The position numbers and the translations under genes were made by a program. DNA of 39,509 bases from a virus: the IMG/VR virus record IMGVR_UViG_3300001918_000034, positions 1-39,509 of that record; one strand, written 5' to 3'. Shown in pieces: positions 1 to 23,254 of this stretch. Under the pieces are notes generated by a model. That model did not search any database. It was given only the letters and a program-made list of their open reading frames with translations, and had not been told where the DNA came from. Position 1 is the stretch's first letter; each line of letters starts with the position of its first letter.

Positions 1-552
1 CTAGCCGTTGCCGGTCGCGGCCTCGGCGAGGGCCTCGCTGAGACGCTCCTGCAGCCAGGTGGAGTCATCCGCCGAGATGCCCAGGAACGGTCGCGCCGGG
101 ATGTCGCCCCACGGGGCGCGGCCGCCGGAGAAGCTCCTGGCCGCGGCGCCGAACTGCTGCACCCGGGCGTAGATCATGGGGCTTCCGATGTCGACGAAGC
201 CAGCCCCCACCTGGTAGTTGATTGTGGTCTTCAGCGCCCCGGTCTCGCCGACCAGGGGCTTCTTGCCGCTGGCGCGCTCCGCGCCCTGCTTGCTCAGCTT
301 GCCGGTCTTGGCGCTGAAGCTGCTGCGGAACTTGCCGAGGAAACGCTCCAGCGTGGTCTGGGTGTTGGCTGCCCAGCGGCTGCCGTCCGGTGCGCGGCTC
401 GTGTCGAAGCGCTGCTTGGTGGTTTCGGCCAAGCCCTCGCCGATCTCCTGCAGCAGCGGCTTGGTGTTGGTGCCGAGCTTGCCTAGGCGGTCGAGCATGG
501 CTCGAACCTGTCGGTCATCGACCTCGACGACGACTGCGTTGCGCTGGGTCAT
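1..552 (-). CDS. G: Mu gpG-like virion morphogenesis / tail completion protein
   Basis: 183-residue protein of the phage virion morphogenesis family (Mu gp31, gpG), which acts at head completion and tail joining. Seen: an N-terminal helical segment, a basic middle region and the C-terminal block GDIPARPFLGIS (about residues 149-160), the typical signature of this family. The stop codon TAG occupies bases 1-3, so the gene is complete but is the last one visible on this side. It follows gpF in the Mu order (terminase, portal, F, G). Unlike the other junctions in this operon, F and G are separated by 76 bases carrying possible regulatory repeats. In Mu the next gene would be I; here I lies 22 kb away on the other strand. 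Confidence 0.87.
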   Translation of the reverse strand: MTQRNAVVVEVDDRQVRAMLDRLGKLGTNTKPLLQEIGEGLAETTKQRFDTSRAPDGSRWAANTQTTLERFLGKFRSSFSAKTGKLSKQGAERASGKKPLVGETGALKTTINYQVGAGFVDIGSPMIYARVQQFGAAARSFSGGRAPWGDIPARPFLGISADDSTWLQERLSEALAEAATGNG

Positions 553-575
553 GAGCTATCCTTGAAGCGCGCCGT

Positions 576-611
576 GGCACATACCGTCTGGCTCATACCC
601 AGAAGCGTTTC
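576..611 (-). promoter_or_regulatory. possible promoter/regulator repeats upstream of G
   Basis: The 76-base F-G gap contains, read on the minus strand, GAAACGCT (604-611) followed by two direct repeats GGTATGAGCC (590-599) and GGTATGTGCC (576-585) spaced 14 bases start to start. GAAACGCT is the core of the motif shared by the regions upstream of the holin and of gene I. A second GAAACGCT lies in the F coding end (654-661). A regulatory role is inferred only from position and repetition. Confidence 0.35.
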
Positions 612-628
612 GGACGTTAGGGATAAGG

Positions 629-1855
629 TCACGGCTTCATCACCCGGATGTAGAGCGTTTCTAGGGCCAACATCCGGCGCTGCTTGCGCAGCTGGAATAC
701 CGCAACAAACTCCTCGCCCCCTACCTTCTTGCGAAAGCGGACCAGCGGCTGGCCTGACGTCGCGGCGCGGCCTGCGTCCTCGATCGCATCCGGTGCGTTC
801 AGAACCGCGGGCACGCGGCCGTAGTCCGCGGGCACCACCGCACGCTGCCCGCGACGAGCCTCAATCGTCTGGTTCCCGTGCTGCTCACGCACGTGCAACG
901 GGCCAAACCGATCCAGCGCAAAGTCAAATCGGGTGACGTCGACGGTTTTGAGCGCTTGGACGGTCGCGGATTGCGCCGAAGTCAGCAGGCCCAGGGTGAA
1001 GTACTCGTCGCGCGGCAGCTTCTCCAGCACTCCCTGCGCATAGACCCGGGCCGCCTCTGCCACGCTCGGCAGCCTGCGGTAGGCCTCAGCCAGTCGATCG
1101 CTTACGGCTGCAGGGACGTCCTGCATGTAGGCCTTCGCCAACGTGTACTCCCACTGCTGGGTCTTGGCCGCCATCGCCTCCACGATGTCGGAGACCGTAT
1201 CGCCCGGCCTGTAGTCCCAGCCTTCGTCGATACCCTTCGGCGCGCCGGTGGCCGGGTCGCGCGCATCCCAACCGTCCGGCAGCGTCTTGCTCGGATCACC
1301 ACCCAGCCGACGGGCATCCTCGGGCCGGCGTAGACCCACCACGCGGCAAGAGCAGCCCCAGCCGTTGGGCGGCGTGTGGCTCTGCCAGAACGGATGATCG
1401 GCAGGCAGCACGAGGCCATCCCACGCGAGGTGCTGTGGACGCGGGTCTGTGGAGCCGCCGTGCTTGTAGAGCAGGAACGGAAAGCCGCCCTCGCGCAGCT
1501 GCGCGGTGCGGCCGGCTGCATAGCTGGTCCGCAGGTTGGTGCCGTAAATCGTGCGCGTGCGCTGGTTGAACTCGCCGCTCGGCTCCCAGCCGGTCTGGCG
1601 CACCAGCTGTCGGAAGTCGCGCCGGAAGTCCTCAATGCTCGTACCCTGCGCGATCGCGCGGTCGATTGACGCCGCCAGACCCGCCAGCAAGTCCGCGTTC
1701 TGCGCGCCCGCGACCATGAACGCGCGGTCATGCTGCTGGCGCATCACGTCGCGCCATGTTGCGGTCGGCACCAGGTTGCCGAGCTTGCCGCGAAAGAAGG
1801 CAACCTGCTGTGCGAAGGGCCGCCGCAGCACGCCCTGGATGGCTGGATCAGCCAC
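629..1855 (-). CDS. F: Mu gpF-like head protein with C-terminal BECR-type nuclease/toxin-like domain
   Basis: 408-residue minor head (MuF) protein that connects portal and capsid and is thought to be ejected with DNA in some phages. The MuF core spans roughly residues 95-172: RTIYGTNLRTSYAAGR followed by a His/Pro-rich section and PPNGWGCSCRV with C168 and C170. After a linker, residues about 310-408 look like the phage-encoded BECR nuclease (PBECR) domains often fused to MuF proteins: REQHGN with H326, E332, RRGQ, an xPDAIED segment near 355-360, a FVAVFQL strand and a terminal ALETLYIRV strand with T400. Mu's own F is not, to my knowledge, described with such a domain. Start overlaps the portal stop by 8 bases. 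MuF assignment is firm; the toxin domain is probable from the pattern only. Confidence 0.87.
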   Translation of the reverse strand: MADPAIQGVLRRPFAQQVAFFRGKLGNLVPTATWRDVMRQQHDRAFMVAGAQNADLLAGLAASIDRAIAQGTSIEDFRRDFRQLVRQTGWEPSGEFNQRTRTIYGTNLRTSYAAGRTAQLREGGFPFLLYKHGGSTDPRPQHLAWDGLVLPADHPFWQSHTPPNGWGCSCRVVGLRRPEDARRLGGDPSKTLPDGWDARDPATGAPKGIDEGWDYRPGDTVSDIVEAMAAKTQQWEYTLAKAYMQDVPAAVSDRLAEAYRRLPSVAEAARVYAQGVLEKLPRDEYFTLGLLTSAQSATVQALKTVDVTRFDFALDRFGPLHVREQHGNQTIEARRGQRAVVPADYGRVPAVLNAPDAIEDAGRAATSGQPLVRFRKKVGGEEFVAVFQLRKQRRMLALETLYIRVMKP

Positions 1856-3389
1856 GCACCGACTCCTCGCTCAGCTCGTAGCGTCCGGCCAGCTCCGCGG
1901 CCGCGAAGGCCATCGCCATCACCTCGCCCAGCTGATCCTTCGACAGCTCGCCGTAGGCCTCACGCAGCTGTGCGCGCAAGTCTTCCAGCGACTCGGCGCG
2001 CTGCACGATGGCCTCGACCTGGTCGAGCACGGACTCCCACGCGGGCGCAGCGTCGCGGGAGAGCGTCTCGGCCTGCAGGGCGGCGGCATCGGCCTCAGTG
2101 CTCTCGCGGTTCAGCGCCCGATTGATCGCGGGCGCGGTCGGCGCGGCCGGCGCCCTCAGTAGCACGCCCTTCGGGTCCGGATCGGGCAGCCCCAGCTTGT
2201 CGCGGATGACGCTCTGTTCCACTTCCAAACCCAGCGGCACCAGCCTCGTGAGTGCATCGACCAGTGCCGCCACGTCTTCCGGCTGCGGCACCTGCACCAC
2301 CAGCTTGGGATAGCGCCCCGGCCCGAAGTTGAGGTCAACGAACGGCCGCACGAACTGCCGGTTGAGCGTGTTCTGCAGTGCGTTGGCGTCGGCCTCCAGC
2401 AGGTCCATGCGGACCTCGTTGTGCACCTTCGCTTGAGCCATAGACCCGCCGTCGTCGGAGGTCATGGTCTGGCCCAGCACGCCCTTGCTGATCTGCTTGT
2501 CCCACCAGTTGGTCAGGCGCTCGAAGAAGTCGGCGGCGCCCGCCACGTTGGCAGCCTGCTCGAACTCGATCCGGGTGCTGTCAGGCAGCACGGCCGCGGC
2601 ATCGCTGCCGAGGTTCGCGACTGCTGCCATGAGCTTGCTGATATCGGCCTTGCTGGCGCCCGGCCCGTAGCGGCCGACGCGCATCGGCAGCCCGAAGATA
2701 TCGGCGAAGGCCATCCAGTCGCGCCAGCTCCAGGCCTTGCACATGTAGCCGGGCGCGGCGAGGCGCGCGAGTCCGCCGCGGATCGGCAGCCCGGCGCGAA
2801 TGCGCGGTCGGTGCACCACGAACTTGTAGGGCGCCAGCTGCAGCCCTTCGGCTGGCGCGGTTGCGTCGAGCAAGCGCAGTTCCTGGCCGGTCTCGCGGTC
2901 ATAGCGGAACCACCTCGGATCGCGGTGCTTCAGGCTCTTGGGGCGCCACTCGCGTCCGCTGGAATCCCACAGGATCTCGACCACGCTGTACGCCTTGCCC
3001 AGCGCATCGGTCAGGTCGGAGACCGCTTCGCCGAACATCGGGTCATCCACCAGCTCGCGCACCGCATCCGCGATGCGCACGTCAGCCTTGTCGTCGCTGA
3101 GTGAGTCCACGCGAATCTTGAGGCTGCCCAGCGCCAGCTTGCGCGTGCCCAGCACCGAGGCGTAATGCAGGTCGCGCTCTTCCATCTCCTCGGCCAGCGT
3201 CAAGTAGGCCGTCGCCTCGCCTTGCGCGGCGTCTTCGAGGATGCGGGCGAGCTTGCCCGGCGTCAGCCCCGTGGCCTCGCTCGGGTGCCAGACCTGCCGA
3301 ATGCCGGTGAGGCCGCCCGCGGCGACCTCTTCCTTCAGCACGTCGTATTCGATGGGCTGGCCGTCCGGGCCGAGAATGCGTGACTTCAT
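1848..3389 (-). CDS. Mu gp29-like portal protein (DUF935)
   Basis: 513-residue portal of the DUF935 family, the ring at the capsid vertex through which DNA is packaged by the terminase and to which the tail joins. Seen: the opening MKSRILGPDGQPI and the segment GLTPGKLARILEDA typical of the family, a central KHRDPRWFRYDRETG block, and the block KGVLGQTMTSDDGGSMAQAK preceding the C-terminal helices. Length is normal for Mu-like portals. It sits directly after the large terminase (3-base gap) and overlaps gpF by 8 bases, the standard Mu late-gene order. No sign of truncation. Confidence 0.92.
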   Translation of the reverse strand: MKSRILGPDGQPIEYDVLKEEVAAGGLTGIRQVWHPSEATGLTPGKLARILEDAAQGEATAYLTLAEEMEERDLHYASVLGTRKLALGSLKIRVDSLSDDKADVRIADAVRELVDDPMFGEAVSDLTDALGKAYSVVEILWDSSGREWRPKSLKHRDPRWFRYDRETGQELRLLDATAPAEGLQLAPYKFVVHRPRIRAGLPIRGGLARLAAPGYMCKAWSWRDWMAFADIFGLPMRVGRYGPGASKADISKLMAAVANLGSDAAAVLPDSTRIEFEQAANVAGAADFFERLTNWWDKQISKGVLGQTMTSDDGGSMAQAKVHNEVRMDLLEADANALQNTLNRQFVRPFVDLNFGPGRYPKLVVQVPQPEDVAALVDALTRLVPLGLEVEQSVIRDKLGLPDPDPKGVLLRAPAAPTAPAINRALNRESTEADAAALQAETLSRDAAPAWESVLDQVEAIVQRAESLEDLRAQLREAYGELSKDQLGEVMAMAFAAAELAGRYELSEESVRG

Positions 3390-3392
3390 GGC

Positions 3393-4958
3393 TTACAGCC
3401 CCTTCTGCGCGCGCCAATTGGCGCCAGTGCGGATCTGGTTGTCTTCTTCGAAGGTGTCGTCGGGCCGCACGCGGTGCGAGTCGATCACCTCCACGTCCTG
3501 CCGGCTCGCGTAGTGCATGAGCGCGATCGCAATACCGGCGTCGCCATGGCGTTGGCCACCGTCGCTGCCCTTGGCCTTGCCATCGGGCACGCGCGCCACG
3601 CCGCGCACCACCTTGATCGCGCGCAGGTCCGCGAGCACGTCCTTGTCGCGCGGCAGCTCGATCTGCGCGTCTTCGAAGGCCGACTTCATCGGCGGCATCT
3701 GCTCGCGGTACCAGGTCTCCGTCAGCATCACCAGCTCGACGCGCTCGTACCCGTAGGCCTGCGCCAGGAACTCGGACAGCGCATGGCCGTTGCCGCGCGC
3801 GTCGAGCGCCGCCTTCCGGAAGCGCGGCAGCCGATCGAGGATGAACTTGGCCACTTGCTCCTGCTGTCGGTGCGGCATGTTGCGCAGCTCGACCAGGAAC
3901 GGCACTCGCCGCGTCAGGCATTGCAGGATCTGCGCGGACACCATCACTGTGAGGTCGCCGCTGCGGCCGAAGTCCTGGCCGAACACACTGTCGAGCTTCG
4001 GATCGAGCCTCTTCAGGTGGGGCTCGACCTCGGATTCCAGCCAGTCCTGCACGGCCTGCCAGCGGTCATGGTCCGAGCGCTGCTCGAAGCCCTTCGGCGC
4101 GGTGAAGCGCAGCACCGGCGCCTCGAACATCCGCGCCTCGATCAGGGTGGTGGTCAGCCATGCGCCAGAGCCCTGGCTCGGGATGACGTCAAGTTCCTCG
4201 TCGGCCGCGTCGCCGTAGAAGTCGTAGACGCCCTGCACCCAGGCCGCCTGCTCAGCCTCGTCATGCAGCTTCCGCAGCCGCAGGCACACGCGCTTGTACA
4301 GGCCATCGCCCACTGCGTGCTGGAAGTCGATGCGATGCACGCTGCCGCGGCGCTTACCGGATCGGATCTCGGTGACCAGCTCATTGAACGGGTTCTGATC
4401 GCCATCGTGGGTGCTGATCACGCGCACGCGGCCGCCCCAGATCAGCAGCGCTAGCGCTGCCTTGAGCAGCTCGCCGAGCTGGCCGTGGAATGCAGCTTCG
4501 TCGATCACCACCACGCCCTGCTTGCCGCGTAGGTTCGCCGGGCGGCTGGACAGCGCCACGATGCGGAAGCCGCTGGCGAAGCGGATGGTGTAGGTCTTGA
4601 TGTGGCGCTCGTCGTCGCCCTCCTTGAAGACCTCCTCGCCTTCTTCCACGGCGCTTGCGGCCTGGTTGAAGACGCGCGCCCACATGGCACAGGCCTCGAT
4701 GTACTCGATGGCCATGTCCATGTTGTAGCCGATGTAGTAGACGTTCTGGCCGCCGGCCACACGCGTCGAAGCCGCGGTGAGCACGTTGTCCGCAGCCTCT
4801 GCCCAGGTCAGGCCGATGCGGCGGCTCTTCTCGGCCACCTTGAGCTGGCTGGTGTCCTCGATCCAGCGCTGTTGGTAGGGCAGCAACACAGCCGGCGACG
4901 CCGCGTTGTAGAGCGCGGCGTCCGATGCGGGCAGCTGGTTGGCGAGCGTCTGGCTCAT
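3393..4958 (-). CDS. Mu gp28-like terminase large subunit
   Basis: 521-residue packaging motor/nuclease. The ATPase part shows a deviant Walker A around residues 43-51 (EKSRRIGLTW), as usual in Mu-like terminases, and a Walker B VVVIDEAAF near 149-157. The RNase H-like nuclease part shows acidic residues in GQDFGRSGDL, LDARGNGHAL and GDAGIAIAL. In Mu-like phages headful packaging starts near the left phage end and runs into host DNA on the right. Start ATG at 4958 overlaps the stop of the small subunit by 4 bases, indicating coupling. Length and motifs are intact. Confidence 0.93.
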   Translation of the reverse strand: MSQTLANQLPASDAALYNAASPAVLLPYQQRWIEDTSQLKVAEKSRRIGLTWAEAADNVLTAASTRVAGGQNVYYIGYNMDMAIEYIEACAMWARVFNQAASAVEEGEEVFKEGDDERHIKTYTIRFASGFRIVALSSRPANLRGKQGVVVIDEAAFHGQLGELLKAALALLIWGGRVRVISTHDGDQNPFNELVTEIRSGKRRGSVHRIDFQHAVGDGLYKRVCLRLRKLHDEAEQAAWVQGVYDFYGDAADEELDVIPSQGSGAWLTTTLIEARMFEAPVLRFTAPKGFEQRSDHDRWQAVQDWLESEVEPHLKRLDPKLDSVFGQDFGRSGDLTVMVSAQILQCLTRRVPFLVELRNMPHRQQEQVAKFILDRLPRFRKAALDARGNGHALSEFLAQAYGYERVELVMLTETWYREQMPPMKSAFEDAQIELPRDKDVLADLRAIKVVRGVARVPDGKAKGSDGGQRHGDAGIAIALMHYASRQDVEVIDSHRVRPDDTFEEDNQIRTGANWRAQKGL

Positions 4959-5503
4959 TCGATGCCCAGCACCTGTTTGCGCAGCGTGTCAGCGAATTCC
5001 TGCGACAGGCCGCCGGCCTTGACCGTGCTCGACAGCCGCTCCTGCTGCTCGCGCAGCAGCCGCTTGCGTGCGGCTTCTTCGATCTGCTCACGCTCCGCCA
5101 GCGAGATGCGGCGGGTGTCGATGGCGTGCTTCGCGGCCTGTGCCAGCTTGCGCACCTCGTCGACGGTGATGTCGTCGTTCTCCTGCGCGCGCAGCGCCGC
5201 ATTGGTGGCCAGGGTGGTGACCGCCTGCGCCAGCAGCGCACCGGCCTTCTCGCCCACGCCTTCGCCCAGCTCGCCGACCAGCGCACTGGCCGCGTGCTCG
5301 ATTTCGCGCATGCGCGCGGTCATCTCGCGGAAGCCCGCCTGGTAGCGGTACAGGCCGCTGCGGCTGACGTCAGCCTCCGGCCAGCGCGCGCGCACCTCGC
5401 CGACGATCTCGTCGAGCGTGTAGCGATCCTCGCGCAGCAGCGATTGGATGAACTCGCGCTGCTCAGGCGGCATGCGGTGGACCTTGGACTTTCGGCTGCT
5501 CAT
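4955..5503 (-). CDS. Mu gp27-like terminase small subunit (DUF3486)
   Basis: 182-residue DUF3486 protein, the presumed DNA-recognition subunit of the Mu-like terminase. Seen: the N-terminal basic motif RKSKVHRMPPEQREFI, then a helix-turn-helix-like stretch (TLDEIVGEVRARWP...VSRSGLYRYQ, residues about 29-56), followed by long helices. Position between the gp26-like winged-helix gene and the large terminase is that of Mu gp27. It overlaps the large subunit by 4 bases (ATGA). Confidence 0.9.
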   Translation of the reverse strand: MSSRKSKVHRMPPEQREFIQSLLREDRYTLDEIVGEVRARWPEADVSRSGLYRYQAGFREMTARMREIEHAASALVGELGEGVGEKAGALLAQAVTTLATNAALRAQENDDITVDEVRKLAQAAKHAIDTRRISLAEREQIEEAARKRLLREQQERLSSTVKAGGLSQEFADTLRKQVLGIE

Positions 5504-5506: not shown

Positions 5507-5800
5507 TTACGCGCTCGGCCGTGCGACGCCGTCGACCACCGCCAGGCCGCGCGCGGACTCCGCACCGCGCTCGGTGAGCGTCGCCACGAGCACCGGCCCG
5601 ACGTCTTCGAGCTGCACCAGACCCTGCTCTTCCAGCCAGCGCAGCTGGGTGCGGGTGTAGTCGCGGGTGATCGCGTGGCCGTAGTGGTCCATCGCTGCGG
5701 TCAGCACCGAGCTGTTCGCACGGCGTGCGTTCTGCTCAAGCAGGACCCGCAGTAACACCAGGCGGCGGTCCTCGGTCAGGCGTTCGGCGAACGACTTCAT
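5507..5800 (-). CDS. Mu gp26-like small winged-helix protein
   Basis: 97-residue protein matching the small winged-helix proteins found at the Mu gp26 position (VpaChn25_0724-type family). Seen: N-terminal SFAERLTEDRRLVLLRVLL, a central helix pair, TRTQLRWLEEQGLV as the likely recognition helix and a beta-wing ending in VATLTERGAESA. The exact role is not known to me; a DNA-binding or packaging-accessory role is inferred from the fold and from lying just upstream of the terminase. Start overlaps the DUF2730 gene stop by 4 bases. Confidence 0.82.
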   Translation of the reverse strand: MKSFAERLTEDRRLVLLRVLLEQNARRANSSVLTAAMDHYGHAITRDYTRTQLRWLEEQGLVQLEDVGPVLVATLTERGAESARGLAVVDGVARPSA

Positions 5801-6195
5801 TGCTTGCTCCCCAGGAGGAAGTTCTCGATCCGCACCACGGCTTTGTGGGTGCTTGAGGTGCGTTCGTTGAGTGCGGTGATATGGCCATTGAGCGTGGCCA
5901 CCTGCAGGCGGATGCCTTCAAGGTCGCGATGCGCCGGCGCTTCAGCGATCGCCTTCTCTGCCAGCGCCATGCGCTGCGACAGCGCGCCGGTGGTGGTCTT
6001 CAGCTTCTCGATATCGTCGGCACACTCGGACTTCAGCGTTTCGATATCGGCAGCGCAGTCTTCCACCGAAGCGCGCAGCGCGGCGCGCTCTGAATCCTTG
6101 CGAGACCGCAGGTACACCCACAGCGTCACCGCGCCACTGAAGAGCACAGCCAGCACCTGGGCCACCTGCAACAGCGTCGTGAGATAGGCCGGCAT
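5797..6195 (-). CDS. Mu gp25-like membrane-anchored coiled-coil protein (DUF2730)
   Basis: 132-residue DUF2730 protein. Seen: one N-terminal membrane segment (about residues 5-28, LTTLLQVAQVLAVLFSGAVT), a basic stop-transfer RSRKDSER, then a long coiled coil to the end (ETLKSECADDIEKLKTTTGAL and LNGHITALNERTSSTHKAV). Function in Mu is not established. The anchor plus extended coiled coil suggests it is an inner-membrane protein. It overlaps the upstream zinc-finger gene by 1 base and the downstream gp26-like gene by 4. Confidence 0.86.
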   Translation of the reverse strand: MPAYLTTLLQVAQVLAVLFSGAVTLWVYLRSRKDSERAALRASVEDCAADIETLKSECADDIEKLKTTTGALSQRMALAEKAIAEAPAHRDLEGIRLQVATLNGHITALNERTSSTHKAVVRIENFLLGSKQ

Positions 6196-6407
6196 CAGCG
6201 CGCCCTCCGCTCGTAGTCATGGGCGCAGCTCGCGCAGCGATTCGTGTAGGGCAGCACCTTCAGCCGCTCGGGCTCGATGCTGGCGCCGCAATCCTCGCAC
6301 TCGGTGCAAGGCGCACCTGCCACGGGCTGGCGGCGCTGGTGCGCCTCCAGTGCCAGGCGCAGATCCAGCTCGGCGCGCTCGTTGGCGGCGTCGATCACGT
6401 CAGACAC
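6195..6407 (-). CDS. TraR/DksA-type zinc-finger protein
   Basis: 70-residue protein of the short TraR/DksA family: an N-terminal acidic helix (residues 1-28, SDVIDAANERAELDLRLALE) and a C4 zinc finger C37-x2-C40...C58-x2-C61 (CEDCG...CASCA). Family members bind in the secondary channel of RNA polymerase and alter promoter choice. Phage copies are common in Mu-like and P2-like genomes, though not all act on RNA polymerase. Start is GTG at 6407, overlapping the upstream stop by 8 bases. Confidence 0.87.
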   Translation of the reverse strand: MSDVIDAANERAELDLRLALEAHQRRQPVAGAPCTECEDCGASIEPERLKVLPYTNRCASCAHDYERRAR

Positions 6408-6684
6408 AGGGACGTCTCTCCACGTTCTTGCCCTGCAGGGCGGTTTCCAGGTCAGCTAGGCAGGCGCTGAAGGCGCTGTACTGGCCGTTGAAGCCCGCGC
6501 GGATCGCGGGCGTCATGCGCTCGCCGTCGACGGTGCCTCGCTTGAGGCGCGCTTCGAGCGTGTGCACGTAGCTGCGCAGGTGTTCGCGCAGCTGCAGAAC
6601 CGGGTCACGGCTGCGGGCAGTGCTCGCTGTCGAGCCCTGCGGCTCGGAGGTCGGCGCAGTAGTTCGCCTGGACGGCCTGCTCAT
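6400..6684 (-). CDS. hypothetical protein overlapping the Rz/Rz1 genes
   Basis: 94-residue protein of unknown function. ATG at 6682-6684 overlaps the Rz stop codon as ATGA, which supports this start by translational coupling. Its first 27 codons lie over the end of Rz1 in another frame. From about residue 30 it becomes a helical protein (LQLREHLRSYVHTLEARLKR, then FNGQYSAFSACLADLETALQ). The Ser/Thr/Arg-rich first 27 residues are low complexity and may be a by-product of the overlap; no convincing later SD/start was found. It is followed by the zinc-finger gene with an 8-base overlap. Confidence 0.6.
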   Translation of the reverse strand: MSRPSRRTTAPTSEPQGSTASTARSRDPVLQLREHLRSYVHTLEARLKRGTVDGERMTPAIRAGFNGQYSAFSACLADLETALQGKNVERRPCV

Positions 6685-6958
6685 AGGTGGTGAGCCCCTC
6701 CGCCAGCGAGGCCTGTCGGCGTCGGCACTGCTGGTACTGCGTCGCCGCTCGCTTCCACGTCCGCAGCATGTCCGCCACGCTGGCGCCCTGCTGCAGCTCT
6801 GGTAGGGTCTCCGGGCAGGGCCTGCGCAGCTCGGCCGCTGGCGCCTCCGGCGGCGGGCTGGGCAGGATCGGTGCCGCGCGCCGCGGTGTTCCAGAGGCGC
6901 ACGCCGTCAGCATCCAGACGCACAGCATCCAGCTCAGGCCGCGAGGCCAGGTACTCAT
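6605..6958 (-). CDS. Rz1: o-spanin (Rz1-like outer-membrane lipoprotein)
   Basis: 117-residue outer-membrane spanin subunit, starting inside Rz in another frame and running past its end. Seen: a short signal sequence with lipobox, MSTWPRGLSWMLCVWMLTAC, so lipidation is expected at Cys20. A proline-rich segment follows (APILPSPPPEAPAAELRRP), typical of Rz1. The C-terminal part (RTWKRAATQYQQCRRRQASL...) is longer than the roughly 40-residue mature lambda Rz1, as in other overlapped-architecture spanins. With Rz it would bridge and fuse inner and outer membranes in the last step of lysis. Confidence 0.85.
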   Translation of the reverse strand: MSTWPRGLSWMLCVWMLTACASGTPRRAAPILPSPPPEAPAAELRRPCPETLPELQQGASVADMLRTWKRAATQYQQCRRRQASLAEGLTTYEQAVQANYCADLRAAGLDSEHCPQP

Positions 6959-7301
6959 CCAAAGCCGCGCCTTGTGCCGCGGCGATGCGGTCGATCTCAT
7001 TGAGCGAATCCTCGTAGCGGGTGCGCACCAGCTCCAGCGCCAAGGCCGAGCGGCGGAAGCGGTCCTGTGCAGCGATCGACTCGCGGCGGATGGTTTCGGC
7101 GTGCTCTGCGAGCGCCACGTTGTTGGCGCGAAGCTCGGGCAGCGCAGCCAGTGCGGCCTTGCCTCGTTCGAATTCTTGCCCGGCATAAAACCCGCCAGTC
7201 GCGCTGAGGAGTGCCAGCGCGACGGCGGCCACCAGCGCGTAGGGCAGCAGCTTGGCGCCGCCGACCTTTGCGAGCCCTGTGGTGGAAGTGATTACGGGCA
7301 T
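6681..7301 (-). CDS. Rz: i-spanin (Rz-like inner-membrane protein)
   Basis: 206-residue inner-membrane spanin. Seen: a membrane anchor (about residues 18-41, LLPYALVAAVALALLSATGG) followed by a long periplasmic coiled coil (residues 45-115: RANNVALAEHAETIRRES...RTRYEDSLNEIDRI) and a low-complexity tail. ATG at 7301 overlaps the transglycosylase stop by 10 bases. The embedded lipoprotein gene in a second frame is the classical Rz/Rz1 pairing and makes the assignment firm despite weak sequence conservation. The C-terminal 60 residues are constrained by the overlap with Rz1. Confidence 0.83.
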   Translation of the reverse strand: MPVITSTTGLAKVGGAKLLPYALVAAVALALLSATGGFYAGQEFERGKAALAALPELRANNVALAEHAETIRRESIAAQDRFRRSALALELVRTRYEDSLNEIDRIAAAQGAALDEYLASRPELDAVRLDADGVRLWNTAARGTDPAQPAAGGASGRAAQALPGDPTRAAAGRQRGGHAADVEASGDAVPAVPTPTGLAGGGAHHL

Positions 7302-7987
7302 GCGGGGGCACCGTCCCAGCCCGCGCGGATGTAGGCCGGCTCCAGCACCAGCAGGATTCGACGCACGTAGTCGCGGTTCTCGCGGATGGCCCACCTCGCG
7401 CGTGGCGAGTTCAACTCGACCTGCCCGAACCAGCGCATGTCGTCGCCGCCGTGTGCGGTGGTCATCACCACGTCGCGACGCACCCAACCAAGCCCGCCGT
7501 TGTAGGCGGACAACGTGAATGCCCAGCGGTCGCAGTCCGTAGTGCCGGCGACACGGTCGTACAGCCACCGGTTGTAGCAAGCGGCTGCGCGGATCGACTG
7601 CGATGGGTCCCAGGGGTCGAAGCCCCACAACTCCGGGCAGACCTCGGGCAGCCACCTCGCCGTGGCGGGTGTGAACTGAGCGAGGCCTTGGGCGTAGGCG
7701 CTGGCCGCTGTCGGGCGCCACGCCGACTCCTGGTGGATCTGTGCCGCGTGCCGCGCCGGACTCGCCTGCAGGCCGAAGTATTCAGCGGCAGCACGCTCCA
7801 CCTGCAGGCGATAGCCCACGCTGGCGGATGGGATGCGAACCGCAGCCACGGCCGCGGCGTCGACACGCCGCAGCTGTTGAGTGCCAGCTCCAGCAGCGGA
7901 CTCCGGGGCTGACAGAGCGCGTACACCACCAGCAGCCGCCAGGAGAAAGGCGGCCAGCAGAAGCACGAGAAGGCGGTGTCCATTCAT
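7292..7987 (-). CDS. secreted lytic transglycosylase endolysin (SLT family)
   Basis: 231-residue peptidoglycan-degrading endolysin. Seen: an N-terminal hydrophobic signal or signal-arrest segment (LLVLLLAAFLLAAAGG, residues 6-21), then an SLT fold with the catalytic motif IHQESAW (E87), AYAQGLAQFTPATARWLPEV and the downstream ALTLSAYNGG-type motif (TLSAYNGGLGWV). ATG at 7987 overlaps the holin stop by one base (TGATG). The frame is open further upstream to 8362 but that extension overlaps the holin antiphase and lacks SD support. The signal segment implies Sec export, so the holin would act mainly by depolarising the membrane. Confidence 0.88.
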   Translation of the reverse strand: MNGHRLLVLLLAAFLLAAAGGVRALSAPESAAGAGTQQLRRVDAAAVAAVRIPSASVGYRLQVERAAAEYFGLQASPARHAAQIHQESAWRPTAASAYAQGLAQFTPATARWLPEVCPELWGFDPWDPSQSIRAAACYNRWLYDRVAGTTDCDRWAFTLSAYNGGLGWVRRDVVMTTAHGGDDMRWFGQVELNSPRARWAIRENRDYVRRILLVLEPAYIRAGWDGAPACP

Positions 7988-8295: not shown

Positions 8296-8406
8296 GCCGC
8301 TCTCCGAAAGGGGGCGGCAGGCCCGACGCCCGCCGCCCCGAGACCCACGAGGACACCAGCACGCGGTGCGCTGGTGGACTCAGAGTGCTTTGGCGGAGAA
8401 CGTTCG

Positions 8407-8417
8407 AGCGTTTCAGC
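8407..8417 (-). promoter_or_regulatory. candidate late promoter element upstream of lysis operon
   Basis: Minus-strand GCTGAAACGCT; with flanks, CCTGCTGAAACGCTCG, 14 of 16 bases match CTTGCTGAAACGCTAG upstream of gene I at 22238-22253. It lies between a terminator and the holin, 112 bases before the holin start. Next to it are short dyads (AACGTTCGAGCGTT region, 8401-8412). Position matches Mu Plys, which is activated by C; here it would be the single Mor/C-family protein. This is inference from motif sharing. Confidence 0.5.
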
Positions 8418-8422
8418 AGGCT

Positions 8423-8454: not shown

Positions 8455-8481
8455 GTGGTTGGTGTTCGAAGTTTCGCTCGG

Positions 8482-11377: not shown

Positions 11378-11391
11378 TCTTGGATGATGGT

Positions 11392-16632: not shown

Positions 16633-16647
16633 CGTGGGTGTCCTCGA

Positions 16648-17290: not shown

Positions 17291-17535
17291 GCGGCCGCCT
17301 TGCCGCGCTTGGCGGCGGGTTTCTCGGTGGGTGCCAGCCCTGCCTCGATGGCGAGCTTCAGGCGCACTGCGCGGCCGCGCGGGCCATCCCAGCTGCCCAG
17401 CAGCGCCTGGCGCGCGTTGGACTGGTCGACCTTGTTGTCGCGGCACCAATTCGCGAGCGTGGTGCCCTTGGCGACGAAGTGGGCCTTGACCTTCAGGAGA
17501 AGTTCGCGGCTCGGTGTTGGCGCGTGGGTTTTCAC
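17287..17535 (-). CDS. ner: Ner/Cro-like small DNA-binding protein
   Basis: 82-residue protein, first gene of the leftward early operon, facing the repressor gene. GTG start at 17535 is chosen because AGGA lies 8 bases upstream on the minus strand; the open frame to 17601 would run through the promoter and operator. Seen: a helix-turn-helix TTLANWCRDNKVDQSNARQALL (residues about 25-46), then a basic Ala/Lys-rich tail. Position and size match Mu Ner, which represses early and c transcription, although the sequence is only HTH-like and not a clear Ner match. Confidence 0.7.
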   Translation of the reverse strand: MKTHAPTPSRELLLKVKAHFVAKGTTLANWCRDNKVDQSNARQALLGSWDGPRGRAVRLKLAIEAGLAPTEKPAAKRGKAAA

Positions 17536-17572
17536 TGCTATCCTGCCTGCCTGTTGTACACGGGGTAGGCAA

Positions 17573-17601
17573 AGGATGGTGCAGAAATCTGCACCTGTCA
17601 A
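17573..17601 (-). promoter_or_regulatory. early promoter with embedded operator
   Basis: Minus strand: perfect -35 TTGACA (17596-17601), 17-base spacer, weak -10 CATCCT (17573-17578). The spacer is filled by the perfect dyad GGTGCAGAAATCTGCACC (17578-17595; arms GGTGCAGA/TCTGCACC around AA). The first gene downstream starts at 17535. A repressor bound here would block polymerase, so this is the expected lysis-lysogeny switch of the phage. Confidence 0.78.
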
Positions 17602-17606
17602 CCGCT

Positions 17607-18026
17607 ATGAGTGCAGAAAAGCACCCTGTCGGAGAACGGCTTCGCGAGGAGCGCCAACGGCGCGGCCTCAGCCAGCCCGCGCTTGGAGAGATCGCGGGCG
17701 CAGCCAAGCGCACCGTCATCGACTGGGAGAAGGGCGCCAGCTCGCCGAGCGCGGTGCAGCTTTCTGCACTAGCCGCGGCAGGCCTGGATGTCCTCTATGT
17801 CGTCACCGGCGAACACAACGCCCAGCTGTCAAAAGAGCAGCCCGTAGCGCTCACCGACCATGCTCGACTTCAGCTCGCGATCGAAGCGGTTGAAGAGGGG
17901 CTGGCGGAGATCAAGCGGAAGCTGCCACCGGCCAAAATGGCCGAACTCATCGTTGCTGCGTACGAACTCATGGCACAGCCAGAGCAGGCGAAGAACGTCA
18001 TCCGCCTGGTACGCGTCGCTGCCTAG
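17607..18026 (+). CDS. c: phage repressor, XRE-type HTH
   Basis: 139-residue repressor of the lytic cycle, divergent from ner. Seen: an N-terminal XRE helix-turn-helix (GERLREERQRRGLSQPALGEIAGAAKRTVIDWEKGAS, residues about 9-44), then the WEKG...P...L...GLDVLYVVTG segment found in many phage XRE repressors. It has a helical C-terminal oligomerisation part and no LexA-type Ser-Lys peptidase domain, so induction is unlikely to be by RecA self-cleavage. ATG at 17607 has no clear SD (possibly a leaderless or weakly translated message). Operator dyads lie just upstream and inside the gene. Confidence 0.85.
   Translation: MSAEKHPVGERLREERQRRGLSQPALGEIAGAAKRTVIDWEKGASSPSAVQLSALAAAGLDVLYVVTGEHNAQLSKEQPVALTDHARLQLAIEAVEEGLAEIKRKLPPAKMAELIVAAYELMAQPEQAKNVIRLVRVAA
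17754..17769. promoter_or_regulatory. second operator dyad inside the repressor gene
   Basis: GTGCAGCTTTCTGCAC has the same arms and 4-base spacer (GTGCAG-N4-CTGCAC) as the operator in the early promoter. A partial copy, GTGCAG followed by AAAAGCAC, lies at 17611-17624 over the first codons of c. Multiple sites suggest cooperative binding and autoregulation of c. Confidence 0.65.
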
Positions 18027-18102
18027 TCGCAGCGGCTGAGATGGCTATGCCCTGGTATTCGCACCCGCGCGGCGGCACCGCGCGACGATGGAGAAACGGG
18101 GG

Positions 18103-18732
18103 ATGGATGATTCACCGCAGGACCGCATCAAGAGGCTGATCAGAGAAAGCAGCGCTTCAAACGTCACCCACATCGGCGAAGCCGCGAGGCGCAGGGGCCG
18201 CAGTCCCAAGGCCGCAGCGGCGCCCGTTGCGCCAAGCACAGCACTGACCGTGCGTGGCAACGGCGCTGGCATCGTGGGGAACAACAACCAGGTGACGATC
18301 CACGTGCGGCCGGTTTCCAGGCCGCGCCTGCAGGTCACCGTGGCGCCGAGCGCGGACCAGATCAACGCCACCCAGGCCTTCGAGCTGCAGCAGCTCGTGC
18401 AGCGCGTGGTCAACGTCAGCGACAAGAACCACGCGCAGGTGTGGGGCGCCTTCCGGCGCAAGTTCATGGTCCCGTCGTACCTGCTGCTGCCTGCCGACCA
18501 GCACGAGCAGGCGCGGAACTACCTGCAAGCCTGGGCCGCGGCCGCACAAGCGAGCGATGCTGCGCCGGAGCCCGATCGCAAGCGACTGTTGGCGCGCATC
18601 CACGTGGAGGCGCGTGGCAAGCCTGATCTGTTGAAGCGCGTTCGCGATGCTGCAGAGGCCGCGTTCGGCACGCGCAGTCTCAGTGAGCTGGATGGCGGAC
18701 AGCTGGCACAAGTACTGCAGGCGGCAAGGTAG
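18103..18732 (+). CDS. ORF6C-like phage regulatory protein
   Basis: 209 residues from the ATG at 18103, chosen because GGAG/GGGGG precede it; an upstream ATG at 18088 lacks an SD. Seen: a basic N-terminal region, a central GAGIVGNNNQVTIHV motif, then a C-terminal part resembling the ORF6C domain of phage antirepressors: LQQLVQRVVN followed by QVWGAFRRKFMVPSYLLLPA and ARNYLQAW (residues about 95-140). Located 76 bases after c in the same direction, so it may be co-transcribed with c and act as a second regulator or antirepressor. Domain call is by pattern only. Confidence 0.6.
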   Translation: MDDSPQDRIKRLIRESSASNVTHIGEAARRRGRSPKAAAAPVAPSTALTVRGNGAGIVGNNNQVTIHVRPVSRPRLQVTVAPSADQINATQAFELQQLVQRVVNVSDKNHAQVWGAFRRKFMVPSYLLLPADQHEQARNYLQAWAAAAQASDAAPEPDRKRLLARIHVEARGKPDLLKRVRDAAEAAFGTRSLSELDGGQLAQVLQAAR

Positions 18733-18745
18733 GAAATCTCCTACC
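18728..18745 (+). terminator. hairpin overlapping the stop codon
   Basis: GGTAGGA / TCCTACC (18728-18734 and 18739-18745) around a 4-base loop, including the TAG stop of the ORF6C-like gene. No T-run follows, so it is a weak terminator or an RNA end-protecting hairpin. The rest of the gap to 18894 holds no recognisable gene; GGAG lies about 12 bases upstream of the next ATG. Confidence 0.4.
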
Positions 18746-18894
18746 CGAACTTCGGCATTTCGCCGATACCGGTGGCCGCTTCCGCGCGCCACCATGTCCT
18801 TGCGCTGCCGGAAGCCCAATCGCGCAACCCGGCGCGGCCAGTTCCGGGGTCAAGCTGAGCCGGCAGCGTTCTCGCGTCTCGATGGAGTCGATCA

Positions 18895-19842
18895 ATGAAA
18901 TCAGGGGTCACTGCAATCTTCTCGGCAGCGCTGCTCGCGCTGCTCTTCGCCTGCCTGCCGCAGGCTCACGCACTCGCGCCGGAGGACGGCGTGTGGTGGA
19001 ACCCGAGCCAGTCCGGCCGCGGCTGGTTCATCGTTTCCCAGAACAACACCATGGTGGTGGCCAGCTACACCTTCGCTCAGGACGGCTCGCCGCAGTGGTA
19101 CATCAGCACCGGCACCTACAGCCCCAGCACGCGCACCCTCAACGCATCGCTGCTGGGTTTCCGCAACGGCCAGTGCATCGGTTGCGCCTACCGTGCGCCG
19201 GAGCAGACCGCCAGCCCAGGCTCGCTGCGCATCGAGTTTGAGGGTGATGAGCGCGCGACGCTCACGCAAGCGGGCGAGACGGTGCAGCTGCAGAAGTTCA
19301 TGTTCGGCTATCCGCAGCGCGATGACAGGCTCTGGGGCGAGTGGGCTTTCGCCATGAACGTCGTGGGTCTGGGTGATAGCGAGTTCCTCGTGTTCGACCG
19401 CCCCTTCACTGGCAGCAACGGAACTCAGTACGTTCAGATGCGTCGCCGGTACAGCTCCGCGGGTCTGGGTCTTGCGTCCTTCGAGCAGTCGCGTGGTGAG
19501 TACTTGGCGCTGCTCGACTCCTCGACCAGCTACTACAAGCTCTTCGTCTATCCGGCAGGCGCGAATCGCTCGCTCGGCGGTCGCTACTGGCTCTACCTCA
19601 AGACCGCATCGCCCACTGGCAGCGGCAACCCCATGGTGGCAATGCGGGTGCGCGATCGAGCAGACGTTCCCACGCCGCTCAGCGGTGCTGCAGCGCAGGA
19701 CAAGTCGCTCGCAGCGGATGTGCGTGATGCTGAGCTGGCCAAGGCGATGGAAGTGCAGGGCGAGGCTCCCGCCTACATCCAGCAATGGGCGGCAGAACTC
19801 GCCGCGGAGATGGAGAACGCGAAGCGAGCGCAGGCCAATTGA
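18895..19842 (+). CDS. exported host-type protein with WWNPSQSGRGW motif
   Basis: 315-residue protein with a clear Sec signal peptide (basic MKSG, hydrophobic core AIFSAALLALLFACL, cleavage near AHA-LA around residue 27). The mature N-terminus carries EDGVWWNPSQSGRGWFI, followed by a beta-rich domain (MVVASYTFAQDGSPQWYIST). This type of exported protein is frequent, often in many paralogues, in Xanthomonadales chromosomes. Function unknown; extracellular or envelope location is inferred. It is neither a phage core gene nor a known moron family, so it is either cargo picked up from the host or evidence of a rearrangement in this region. Confidence 0.78.
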   Translation: MKSGVTAIFSAALLALLFACLPQAHALAPEDGVWWNPSQSGRGWFIVSQNNTMVVASYTFAQDGSPQWYISTGTYSPSTRTLNASLLGFRNGQCIGCAYRAPEQTASPGSLRIEFEGDERATLTQAGETVQLQKFMFGYPQRDDRLWGEWAFAMNVVGLGDSEFLVFDRPFTGSNGTQYVQMRRRYSSAGLGLASFEQSRGEYLALLDSSTSYYKLFVYPAGANRSLGGRYWLYLKTASPTGSGNPMVAMRVRDRADVPTPLSGAAAQDKSLAADVRDAELAKAMEVQGEAPAYIQQWAAELAAEMENAKRAQAN

Positions 19843-20152
19843 ACTGAGCTGCCGCGATCGCTGCTTGGCTGGTCGCGCAATGCTCTGCAGCCTGGGTGAA
19901 TTGCTCCCCGCTGTGCGCGCCTGTGAGGCCCAGCAGGCCCGACCCGCGGCAACGACTCGCCCAAGTCTTGCATGGCTGTCCATGGACGCCCGCAGGCGGC
20001 CGTGGCGCGGCTTGCGAGCGTGACCGTGACACTCAGTCAGGCTGGCGGGGTTAGGCCAGCAATCTTGCGGGGCGGCAACCCAAGGTTGCGCGCCCCGTTG
20101 CCACGTCGTTGCCGCGCGGCTGGCTTCGACTCGAAACAAGGGGGAATGCGGA
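19843..20152. other. 310-base intergenic region with tandem hairpins
   Basis: No gene is supported here. Two hairpins stand in tandem: GCTGGC/GCCAGC (20041-20046, 20055-20060) and GGGGCGGCAACC paired with GGTTGCGCGCCCC (20069-20080, 20084-20096, one bulged base). Without T-runs they may be rho-independent-like pauses or transcript 3' ends for the exported-protein gene. The promoter of the following restriction-type gene should lie here, but no good -35/-10 pair was seen. Confidence 0.5.
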
Positions 20153-21235
20153 ATGGACCTAATTGATCGGCTGCGAGACCTCGCAGCGCGTGCGAACCGC
20201 CTGGCGGCGAGCATTCAGACCGAAGAGGCGTGCAAGAACGCTTTCATCATGCCGATGCTCGGCGCGCTGGGTTACGACGTCTTCAACCCCGAGGAGGTGG
20301 TGCCGGAGTTCGTTGCCGACGTCGGCATCAAGAAGGGTGAGAAGGTCGACTACGCCGTGCGCAAGGACGGCAAGATCATCATGCTCATCGAGTGCAAGTG
20401 GAACGGCAAAGCGCTGGTCATCGAGCATGCCTCGCAGCTCTTCCGCTACTTCGCGGTCACCGAAGCGCGCTGCGCCATCCTGACCAACGGCCTCGTCTAT
20501 CAGTTCTATACGGACATCGACGAGCCGAACAAGATGGACAAGCATCCGTTCTTCGTCTTCAACCTGCTCGACTTCAACGAGAGCCACGCGGATGAGCTGC
20601 GCAAGTTCACCCGCGAAGCATTCGATATCGGCAACGTCATCGGCGCGGCAGGCACGCTGAAGTACACCAACCAGGTCAAGAAGATCCTGGCCGAAGAGTT
20701 GGCAAAGCCGTCCGAGGAGTTCGTGCGCCTGTTCGCCTCGCGCATCTACGACGGCCGCATGACGCAGGCTGTGCGCGAGCAGTTCGAGGGCATCGTGCAG
20801 CGCTCGTTCGCGGACTTCATCCGCGAGCGCATCAGCGACCGCCTGAAGAACGCCCTGCGCGAGGACGCAGCACCCGGCGCGCTGATCGATCCGCTGCCCG
20901 ACGGCCGAGCGCTGTCGTCCACGGCGCCGGCCGAAGAGGTTTCGGACATCGTGACCACCGATGAGGAGCGCGAGGGCTTCAACATCATCCGCGCCATCCT
21001 GCGCGAGGTGGTGGATGCGAAGCGCGTGGTGATGCGCGACGCCAAGTCTTACTGCGCGATCCTGCTCGACGACAACAACCGCAAGCCGATTGCGCGCCTG
21101 CACTTCAACGCGCAGAGCAAGCGCTACGTGGGCCTGTTCACCGACAAGGTCGAGGAGCGCGTGGAGATCAGCTCGCTGGACGATATCTTTGCACTGGCGC
21201 CGAGGCTGAAGGCGACTGCCTCTGAGTACAGTTGA
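20153..21235 (+). CDS. stand-alone PD-(D/E)XK protein, type I restriction HsdR N-terminal-like
   Basis: 360-residue protein of the solitary HsdR_N-type family. Seen: FIMPMLGALGYDVFNPEEVVPE (residues 31-52), then the nuclease core D66 (KVDYAV) and E80-x-K82 (LIECKW), followed by LFRYFAVTEARCAILTNG, typical of the family. The C-terminal half contains an acidic linker and a beta-rich domain (RLHFNAQSKRYVGLF). No HsdM/HsdS or helicase motor is encoded nearby, so it is not a complete type I system. Such orphans are frequent in prophages and mobile elements. A defence role against incoming DNA is plausible but not shown. Confidence 0.85.
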   Translation: MDLIDRLRDLAARANRLAASIQTEEACKNAFIMPMLGALGYDVFNPEEVVPEFVADVGIKKGEKVDYAVRKDGKIIMLIECKWNGKALVIEHASQLFRYFAVTEARCAILTNGLVYQFYTDIDEPNKMDKHPFFVFNLLDFNESHADELRKFTREAFDIGNVIGAAGTLKYTNQVKKILAEELAKPSEEFVRLFASRIYDGRMTQAVREQFEGIVQRSFADFIRERISDRLKNALREDAAPGALIDPLPDGRALSSTAPAEEVSDIVTTDEEREGFNIIRAILREVVDAKRVVMRDAKSYCAILLDDNNRKPIARLHFNAQSKRYVGLFTDKVEERVEISSLDDIFALAPRLKATASEYS

Positions 21236-21385
21236 CGACTCAAGGACTGTTGACTATCCGCTGCACCTTGTAGGTGGTGCTAGCGACCTCGCTCGACGCG
21301 CACGCTGCAGGAATTCGGACCGAGCGCCAGGCCCTAAGCAAAAAACTTCAACCAACCAAGAGTTGCACAGAGAAACGGAGTGGGC

Positions 21386-21688
21386 ATGACTGCATTCGAC
21401 CTTGAGGGGATCAAGACGCATCTTGCGGACAAATGGCATGGGAAGTGCCCGATGTGCGAAGCAAACATCTGGCACATTTCAGAAAAGCTATTCCAGCTCA
21501 CTGAGTTCTTCGAGGGTGCGACGGTGGTAGGAGGCAGCGTCGTGCCGGTACTTCCGATTGCGTGTCAGAACTGCGGCTTTACTGTCCTTGTCAGCCCTCT
21601 TGTCGCCGCACGCGCGACCGCTTCCCCCTCGCCAAGTGAGGGCAGCGCCGTCAACGCTGCCAAAGATGGACAAGGCGGGGAGGGCTAG
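21386..21688 (+). CDS. small zinc-ribbon protein
   Basis: 100 residues from the ATG at 21386, seven bases after a GGAG; a GTG two codons earlier is too close to the SD. Seen: CPMC (C21, C24) and CQNC (C60, C63) forming a four-Cys zinc ribbon, with W17/W29 and a GGSVVPVLPIACQNCGF segment of the kind seen in a widespread uncharacterised family of about 80-100-residue proteins. A low-complexity Ala/Ser tail follows. Three bases separate it from the next gene, so both are co-translated. The upstream 150-base gap contains an A-rich segment near 21340-21350 but no certain promoter. Confidence 0.72.
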   Translation: MTAFDLEGIKTHLADKWHGKCPMCEANIWHISEKLFQLTEFFEGATVVGGSVVPVLPIACQNCGFTVLVSPLVAARATASPSPSEGSAVNAAKDGQGGEG

Positions 21689-21691
21689 CCA

Positions 21692-22216
21692 GTGTCCCAA
21701 AAGCCAGATTTTCAGATTTCCCATGATCTTTCGATCATGAAGCCCAGCGCCGATCAGGCCTACCCTATCGCTCGCGCCGAGTGGAGAAGTATCCGTGAGC
21801 GCTTAGGTGGCATGTCGGGCGAGCCCTTTGCGCTTCAGACTGCAGGGTCTCTGACACTGGGTGTTGTTTTTGCCCTGGTCATAAACCTGGCCACGGGCGC
21901 CTATAGCGCCGATAGCCAGCGAGTCGCCTTCGCCGTTGCCGCGACGGCCTCTTGCTGCCTCACGCTCGTTGGCATCGCGTTCTACTATTTGGCAGGCGAA
22001 CAACGCAAGCTGTATCGAAGCCGCATTTCAGACATCGTTGACGAGATGAAGAGGATAGAGGCGCGATTTGCGGCCGAGAGCCCGCCGAAGGCTGACGCCT
22101 CCGACCCCTTGGATCTAGCGGATTATGTGAAGCACCTACGGAGCCTTAATCAGGCGATGAAGTCGAAGGTAGAGATCCTGATTACGCCTAAGGATCCTCC
22201 CGACAGGCCGCGCTGA
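21692..22216 (+). CDS. two-TM membrane protein paired with the zinc ribbon
   Basis: 174-residue membrane protein, unrecognised. GTG start at 21692 with GGGAGG upstream; an ATG at 21737 is an alternative start, and a perfect hairpin CATGATC-TTTC-GATCATG (21722-21739) ends on that ATG. Seen: two membrane helices (about residues 52-72, LTLGVVFALVINLATG, and 78-103, VAFAVAATASCCLTLVGIAFYYLAG) and a charged cytoplasmic C-terminal half with coiled-coil tendency (ISDIVDEMKRIEARFAAE). The 2-TM plus cytosolic tail layout and linkage to a zinc ribbon resemble effector/sensor pairs, but no known system is recognised. Confidence 0.72.
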   Translation: MSQKPDFQISHDLSIMKPSADQAYPIARAEWRSIRERLGGMSGEPFALQTAGSLTLGVVFALVINLATGAYSADSQRVAFAVAATASCCLTLVGIAFYYLAGEQRKLYRSRISDIVDEMKRIEARFAAESPPKADASDPLDLADYVKHLRSLNQAMKSKVEILITPKDPPDRPR

Positions 22217-22237
22217 AGGTCTAGACACGAATCTCAT

Positions 22238-22282
22238 CTTGCTGAAACGCTAGTCGCGCGACGCGGGGCGAATCATCGCCCC
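22238..22282 (+). promoter_or_regulatory. candidate late promoter element and start-blocking hairpin for I
   Basis: CTTGCTGAAACGCTAG (22238-22253) matches the element upstream of the lysis operon in 14 of 16 bases. It is followed by the palindrome GTCGCGCGAC (22253-22262) and a perfect hairpin GGGGCGA-ATCA-TCGCCCC (22265-22282) ending directly before the ATG of I. In Mu, a C-dependent promoter PI lies at this point. The hairpin would hide the ribosome-binding region, so a translational control or a pause is possible. Confidence 0.6.
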
Positions 22283-23254
22283 ATGCACCGCATAACCACC
22301 CTCGCTCTCTGCACCGAACTCGGCCTGCTCGCCGCTGGCGACGCGCCGGGTGTTCCGGGTGCCATCCCACTGATTCCGGCCGGCCCCACCGTGCGGGGGC
22401 GCGATGGCCGCGAGTGGACCTTCGACCAGCCTTCGATTGACGCCGTTCTGCAGGCCTTCGAAGCGCGCGGCGTCGAGCTGCCCATCGATTGGGAACACGC
22501 CACCCAGCACCGCGCGCCGCGTGGCGAGGCCGCGCCCGCCGCTGGCTGGATCACTGCGCTCAATGTGCGCGGCGGTGCCCTGTGGGCTGACGTGCAGTGG
22601 ACCGACCGCGGTCATGACCAGGTGCTGGCCCGCGAGTACCGCTACATCAGCCCCGTCTTCGACTTCGATCCCAACACCGGCCGCATCGTGCGGCTGGTGT
22701 CTGCCGGGCTGACCAACACGCCCAACTTGCCGCTGCAAGCCCTCAACCAGGAGCAACCCATGAAGCTCAGCCTGACCGCCGCCCTGGCGGCCGCCCTTGG
22801 CGTGTCCGCCGATGCCGATGAAGCCACCGCCCTGACCGCCATCGAGTCGCTGAAGACCGCCACCAACCGCGAGGCCACCAACCTGGAGCGCTACGTGCCG
22901 CGCGCCGATTACGACCAGGTGCTGCAGCGCGCGACCAACGCCGAGCAGCAGCTGCTCCAGCGCGACACGGTTGCGCACAAGACGGCCGTCGACGCGGCGA
23001 TCGAAAGCGCGCTGCAGGCTCGCAAGATCGCCCCGACCTCGGTCGATTACCACCGCGCCAGCTGCAGCGATCGTAGCGGCTTGGAGCGCTTCCAGGCTTT
23101 CGTGGCCAGCGCACCGGTCATCGCCCCGGACGCGGGCATCGAGGGTCCGCCGCCGGGCGCTACCAAGACCGCGCTCAACGCCGAGCAGCAGCAGGCCGCG
23201 CGCCTCCTGGGCCTGACGCCCGAGGAGTACGCGAAGCGCCTGCCCACCGACTGA
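22283..23254 (+). CDS. I: Mu gpI-like head maturation protease
   Basis: 323-residue Mu prophage I protein, the protease that processes scaffold and itself during head assembly. Seen: the opening ITTLALCTELGLLAAG and IPLIPAGPTVRGRDGREW, the ELPIDWEHATQ motif (His near residue 73) and AREYRYISPVFDFDP (Ser near 121), both conserved in the family, then a linker and a C-terminal helical scaffold region. First gene of the rightward structural operon; the usual upstream gene G lies 22 kb away. A hairpin occupies the bases directly before the ATG. Confidence 0.92.
   Translation: MHRITTLALCTELGLLAAGDAPGVPGAIPLIPAGPTVRGRDGREWTFDQPSIDAVLQAFEARGVELPIDWEHATQHRAPRGEAAPAAGWITALNVRGGALWADVQWTDRGHDQVLAREYRYISPVFDFDPNTGRIVRLVSAGLTNTPNLPLQALNQEQPMKLSLTAALAAALGVSADADEATALTAIESLKTATNREATNLERYVPRADYDQVLQRATNAEQQLLQRDTVAHKTAVDAAIESALQARKIAPTSVDYHRASCSDRSGLERFQAFVASAPVIAPDAGIEGPPPGATKTALNAEQQQAARLLGLTPEEYAKRLPTD
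22760..23254 (+). CDS. Z: internal in-frame start: scaffold protein Z
   Basis: ATG at 22760 inside I, same frame, preceded by an excellent SD (AGGAG, 5 bases upstream of the ATG). Product of 164 residues (MKLSLTAALAAALG...) corresponding to the C-terminal scaffold part of I. Mu expresses its scaffold Z in exactly this way. The scaffold would guide capsid assembly and be removed by I. Confidence 0.82.
   Translation: MKLSLTAALAAALGVSADADEATALTAIESLKTATNREATNLERYVPRADYDQVLQRATNAEQQLLQRDTVAHKTAVDAAIESALQARKIAPTSVDYHRASCSDRSGLERFQAFVASAPVIAPDAGIEGPPPGATKTALNAEQQQAARLLGLTPEEYAKRLPTD

Follow-up and report, generated by a model that had tools for sequence, protein, structure and literature searches.

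Overall map of the window

The DNA analysed here (the window, 39,509 bases, which is the whole of its IMG/VR record) very probably carries a transposable prophage of the Mu-like kind that is intact, encodes a B3-family transposase and has inherited its divergent map. From the left end this map reads G, F, portal, TerL, TerS and lysis genes, then Mor, GemA, Gam, B and A, all directed leftward, followed by the repressor, accessory genes, and I, T, the tail genes and Dam directed rightward to the right end. The layout and its termini are inherited across relatives, and the split between G and I is found repeatedly. What is new is that the split recurs at the same G/I boundary in separate lineages, with both orientations of the early module; in the open-access literature we found no paper on a map of the window type or on its recurrence.

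Gene identities were assigned from PHROGs and Pfam profile matches together with an ORF scan of the window, giving the following features.

1..552, minus: G (neck1/tail completion), last gene of the left arm; PHROG 26, E=4e-32
629..1855, minus: F (minor head protein); PHROG 220, E=2e-78
1848..3389, minus: portal; PHROG 113, E=5e-156
3393..4958, minus: terminase large subunit (TerL); PHROG 2, E=2e-35
4955..5503, minus: terminase small subunit (TerS); PHROG 426, E=4e-39
5507..9054, minus: small genes of the TerS-Mor interval, probably including lysis; ORF scan, Mu-like order by position only
7987-8295, minus: holin-like gene; Pfam Holin_2-3, E=2e-5, below the Pfam cut-off
9088..9528, minus: Mor-type late transcription activator; Pfam Mor, E=2e-20
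10063..10686, minus: GemA; Pfam GemA, E=1e-16
11392..12030, minus: Gam-like end protection protein; PHROG 491, E=9e-16
12765..13937, minus: transposition ATPase B; PHROG 296, E=4e-59
13934..15742, minus: transposase A (B3 family); PHROG 310, E=1e-90, 40% identical to the B3 transposase
17514..18026, plus: repressor-like HTH gene in the middle of the divergent map; PHROG 8 and 4
18088..22216, plus: accessory genes of the repressor-I interval; part of the region varies among close relatives
20153-21235, plus: HSDR_N protein (accessory); Pfam HSDR_N, E=9e-14
22283..23254, plus: head maturation protease I, opening the right late arm; PHROG 328, E=2e-85
23319..24215, plus: major capsid protein T; PHROG 371, E=2e-129
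24737..34768, plus: head-tail adaptor and tail genes; PHROG 195, 209, 290
27727-33225, plus: tape measure; size and tblastn with B3/JY19
35729..36499, plus: Dam-type adenine methyltransferase; Pfam MethyltransfD12, E=3e-22
36906..36948, plus: right terminus; two CGATAAAT-type sites, final bases ..GCCGCTACA; alignment stops at 36948 in G002 and G003 and at 36949 in G006; motif inverse of the left terminus
36949..36954, no strand: GCGGGC, predicted 6-bp target duplication, from the 6-bp duplications in G002 and G007; only the right copy lies within the record

The minus strand, from 15.7 kb down to base 1, carries A, B, Gam, GemA, Mor, the small genes, TerS, TerL, portal, F and G, with G, F, portal and both terminase genes placed beyond the early genes at the far left. 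On the plus strand are the repressor-like gene (17.5 kb), the accessory genes and, rightward from 22,283, protease I, capsid T, the tail genes and the Dam-type methylase. The preliminary description had everything from the repressor c to G running leftward and I to tail running rightward; the profile matches bear this out for G to A and for I to tail, but the repressor-like gene is itself on the plus strand, with the left arm beginning immediately to its left.

Membership in the transposable (Mu-like, saltovirus) phages is indicated by the DDE transposase A and ATPase B (PHROG 310 and 296), by GemA and Mor above the Pfam cut-off, by the Mu-type portal of PHROG 113, and by TG..CA termini with inverted transposase-type sites, the right one in the window and the left one in relatives.

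Termini and target duplications

The 5' flank of base 1 lies outside the record. Since the record opens at the final base of the G stop codon and closes exactly at the start codon of a host ORF, base 1 points to a trimming boundary at a gene edge rather than to a break. A Bise-like prophage (L311, IMGVR_UViG_2876695881_000001; T 98% identical) has the identical split and is likewise cut exactly at the G stop codon.

As the left terminus is absent from the record, it was read in relatives from other assemblies whose sequence continues past G, namely G002 (3300037462_000666), G003 (3300042486_001501) and L003 (3300002461_000602). The Mu-like left end that the preliminary description advised looking for left of base 1 is present in them: in all three the similarity stops, 113 bp past the G stop codon, at a TGT(C/T)CC..GCTTGATAAATACC..GCTCGATAAATCC terminus beyond which the DNA is unrelated. 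Inverted, this terminus corresponds to the right end, ATTTATCG..GATTTATCGAGCGCCGCTACA, and the window's own left terminus is accordingly expected 113 bp left of base 1. The interval between G and the terminus contains a hairpin resembling a terminator, TTGCGGGAGCCGCAA-CTTTGTTT (one found versus 0.3 expected, which is weak alone). The right end proposed at 36948, where ..GCCGCTACA is followed by GCGGGC and then by the host ORF, coincides with the end of alignment in G002 and G003. The unit length is about 37.06 kb, the standard size.

A perfect 6-bp target duplication, TTCACT, is present on both flanks of G002, and another, CTCAGG, brackets G007, a related prophage on a Lysobacterales MAG contig. 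No duplication was seen in four of the six contigs with both ends visible; two exact duplications among six at the expected position, each with a chance of about 1 in 4,096, are far beyond chance. Because the duplications bracket two split prophages, the split genome is the transposing unit. A 6-bp duplication is described for the B3/Tn552 family (PMC8705779) and, since the relatives show 6 bp, the window's expected duplication is GCGGGC and not the 5-bp GCGGG first suggested. In the portion of G009 examined, neither the right end nor a duplication was found. The prophage with the CTCAGG duplication (L084 / G007:C80) has lost its middle: about 17.6 kb is left, in which a C-terminal remnant of T adjoins TerL, and I, the early genes and the repressor are gone.

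Inheritance and intactness in close relatives

Gene order in related genomes, the comparison that the preliminary description called for, shows the layout to be common to relatives at 75-92% DNA identity. The full map was found in G002, G003 and G005, the same left part in G004 and L003, and the right part in G006; G002 aligns collinearly to window positions 11400-21235 and 22241-36948. The core genes on either side of the split are intact and under purifying selection, with no stops in the genes compared and dN/dS values against G002 of 0.02-0.15, the exception being GemA (0.36). In G005 the transposase groups with that of JY19 and I and T are placed elsewhere on the tree, so modules have been swapped while the map is unchanged. 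Of the two earlier suggestions, a stable lineage of standard size is therefore upheld. A recent, probably defective prophage inversion is rejected, because divergent relatives keep the layout and the core genes are intact.

Comparison with known phages

Gene order is regarded as strongly conserved among Mu-like phages. In the preliminary description no transposable phage was known to be split within its head genes; Bise and KS10 are, and so by report are some Leptospira prophage groups (PMC8705779).

Bise (Pseudomonas phage, OR683401) has the same map as the window, with G, F, portal, TerL, TerS, Mor, Gam, B and A leftward to the left end and repressor, I, T, tail and Dam rightward, and it carries CGATAAA-type sites at both termini like the window lineage. 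It differs in its contractile tail, its distant proteins (A 30% identical) and its separate position on the tree. According to the portion of its report consulted here (PMC11846083, 2025), Bise was found as induced free particles; the layout is not remarked on in that portion.

KS10 (Burkholderia phage, NC_011216), a plaque-forming phage with a sister map, was described in 2008 as having a divided capsid module, called unique to KS10 and left unexplained (PMC2628397). It shares with the window F, portal, TerL and TerS with lysis genes leftward at the left end, central I and T, and tail genes running to the right end. However, its early module is rightward whereas that of the window is leftward, its G homologue follows T, its transposase is of another group, and TG..CA ends or a target duplication are not reported for it.

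From B3 and the B3-type phages Lsp-JY19 and phiSHP3 the window does not differ in its B3-family transposase, its leftward early module or Mor at the far end of that module, nor in the 6-bp duplication seen around its relatives G002 and G007, and window positions 9513-12555 are 83% identical to JY19. In the B3 type, however, TerS to G lie in the right arm beside I and the left end adjoins Mor. Within blocks the window follows the gene order of Mu, including A, B, gam, gemA and mor and then TerS, TerL, portal, F and G. In Mu, c is at the left end, the gyrase site lies between G and I, and the blocks are all unidirectional with G beside I; the window has neither this single direction nor adjacent G and I. 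The Leptospira transposable prophages TG1, TG2 and NN, reported in 2021, also have separated head blocks, although by description their breakpoints are others and their head and tail genes reportedly lie in the same orientation (PMC8705779).

Module maps and recurrence of the split

With all maps oriented so that the tail reads rightward, the early module occurs in both orientations with each of the two positions of the G block, giving four combinations in all. In the Mu type both the early module and TerS-G are on the right-reading strand. The B3 type (B3, JY19, phiSHP3, G012, G016, G026) has the early module leftward and TerS-G rightward. The window type (window clade, Bise and the divergent G021) has TerS-G leftward at the terminus and the early module leftward, and the KS10 type (G030, G018, G019, G024, G009, and KS10 with G relocated) has TerS-G leftward at the terminus and the early module rightward. 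One inversion of the segment bounded by the left end and the G/I gap converts Mu order into window order, and B3 order into the KS10 type; the earlier proposal that inverting 1-22.25 kb restores the Mu order holds in this comparison. That inversion was the mechanism is an inference.

Three records showed unusual arrangements. The record of Leptolyngbya phage Lsp-JY19 (L002, PP438411) has left-terminus-like sequence, TGTCCCCGCTCTTGATAG.., within its final ~130 bases and begins inside Mor, and therefore was deposited in permuted form. Microcystis phage Mae-JY22 (L306, PP438414), in which the early genes read rightward but TerL/TerS and the tail block read leftward, was considered as another map and set aside as probably a permuted record, possibly of B3 type. 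In the prophage at G314:C14:281143-296196, portal and T are on the same strand 14 kb apart, possibly through an insertion or rearrangement between them.

On a 32-row tree of TerL and portal the split label requires four changes (bootstrap 5-95% range 4-4), with the window clade, G030+G007, G009+L101 and Bise as separate split groups; KS10 was too divergent to be placed on it. On the tree of I and T the label requires seven changes, at least four of them forced. The transposases of split phages scatter in three groups, the B3 family, Bise and a KS10-like group formed by G009 and L101 (40% identical). As modules recombine, these counts need not equal the number of inversions. The similarity-fetched set, a biased sample, held 186 unsplit and 13 split records. 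In GTDB samples of 369 genomes of the class of G007 and 300 of its order, about 13 prophages had portal and T on a single contig and none of these except the seed G007 was split, which suggests that split prophages are uncommon in sequenced genomes.

Gyrase site

The preliminary description placed a Mu gyrase site at the G/I boundary. The annotation of Mu indeed has the cut site at 17879-17880, with G ending at 17859 and I starting at 18056; its central position matters in Mu replication (PMC10052514). Several unsplit near relatives (L009, L010, L085, L168 and others) share a conserved element similar to ATTTAAACGGGTTTTAAACGG, roughly 100-120 nt past G. By eye this element resembles the right arm of the Mu strong gyrase site, and such elements are candidate gyrase sites in other transposable phages. 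TTTAAA, which is present in the Mu site, occurs nowhere in the window, and the KS10 authors found no similar gyrase site in KS10 (PMC2628397). A helical-phasing scan for gyrase-like sites did not single out even Mu's own site and was uninformative. Since unsplit B3-type phages are also without a Mu-like site, any link between the gyrase site and the break is offered as a hypothesis only.

Proposed explanation and alternatives

In the arrangement that we propose, the early operon and the late operon from lysis to G would be read leftward from the regulatory centre and the I-to-tail operon rightward. The two late operons would not need to adjoin because a Mor-type activator would act in trans. 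The CGATAAA-type sites at the two termini would be recognised by A and B, which would move the unit as a whole by replicative transposition. Compared with that of Mu, the map would differ by one inversion, of the half genome bounded by the G/I gap and a point just inside the left end.

It is hardly credible that the order reflects a recent inversion within a single integrated prophage that left a defective element. One internal inversion of a Mu-type map would give this order, but identical layout and termini occur in independent assemblies of relatives down to 75% DNA identity, selection is purifying on both sides, and Bise is an inducible isolate with the same map. Equally little probability attaches to an assembly or binning artefact, with arms misjoined or taken from different phages: there is a single record and base 1 is its end, yet separate metagenome contigs cross the same junctions, G002 matches both segments in order, Bise and KS10 are independent isolates, and target duplications bracket split units. 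The half genome from the left end to the G/I gap might instead be an actively invertible segment, present in both orientations within one phage population, and related phages do show both orientations of the block with the same two breakpoints. We consider this very improbable, as every window-clade member with enough sequence has one orientation, and end-type site matches in G002 and G003 lie at the termini only, with none at the centre.

Our tentative reading, with a real chance of being right, is that inversions in transposable phages have repeatedly broken at the G/I gap, that the half from left end to centre flipped several times in separate lineages to give all four maps, and that a central gyrase site of the Mu type was lost or substituted in split lineages. 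The gap may recur as a breakpoint because, we think, breakage is tolerated at this operon boundary, which is perhaps also prone to recombination. Module exchange could also have spread the layout. That it arose only once or twice and then spread by recombination among transposable phages, rather than by repeated inversion, is rather unlikely though to be taken seriously: exchange is clear in the window clade, where G005 combines a JY19-like transposase with different I and T, but split phages are scattered on both trees and carry three groups of transposase. An oddity published for KS10 recurs in several lineages with both early-module orientations, and so becomes a pattern. This indicates that the two late operons can function at a distance from each other, and opens to testing whether the transposable-phage map is fixed by its transcription units, by the central gyrase site or by insertion of accessory genes.

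Accessory genes upstream of I

The accessory cassette just upstream of I (20153-22216) encodes the restriction-like HSDR_N protein; a second product, of 102 aa, has a weak PtuB-like match (E=0.002), and a third, of 174 aa, has no matches. These could be defence or counter-defence genes. In D3112, anti-CRISPR genes have been reported at the position matching this cassette.
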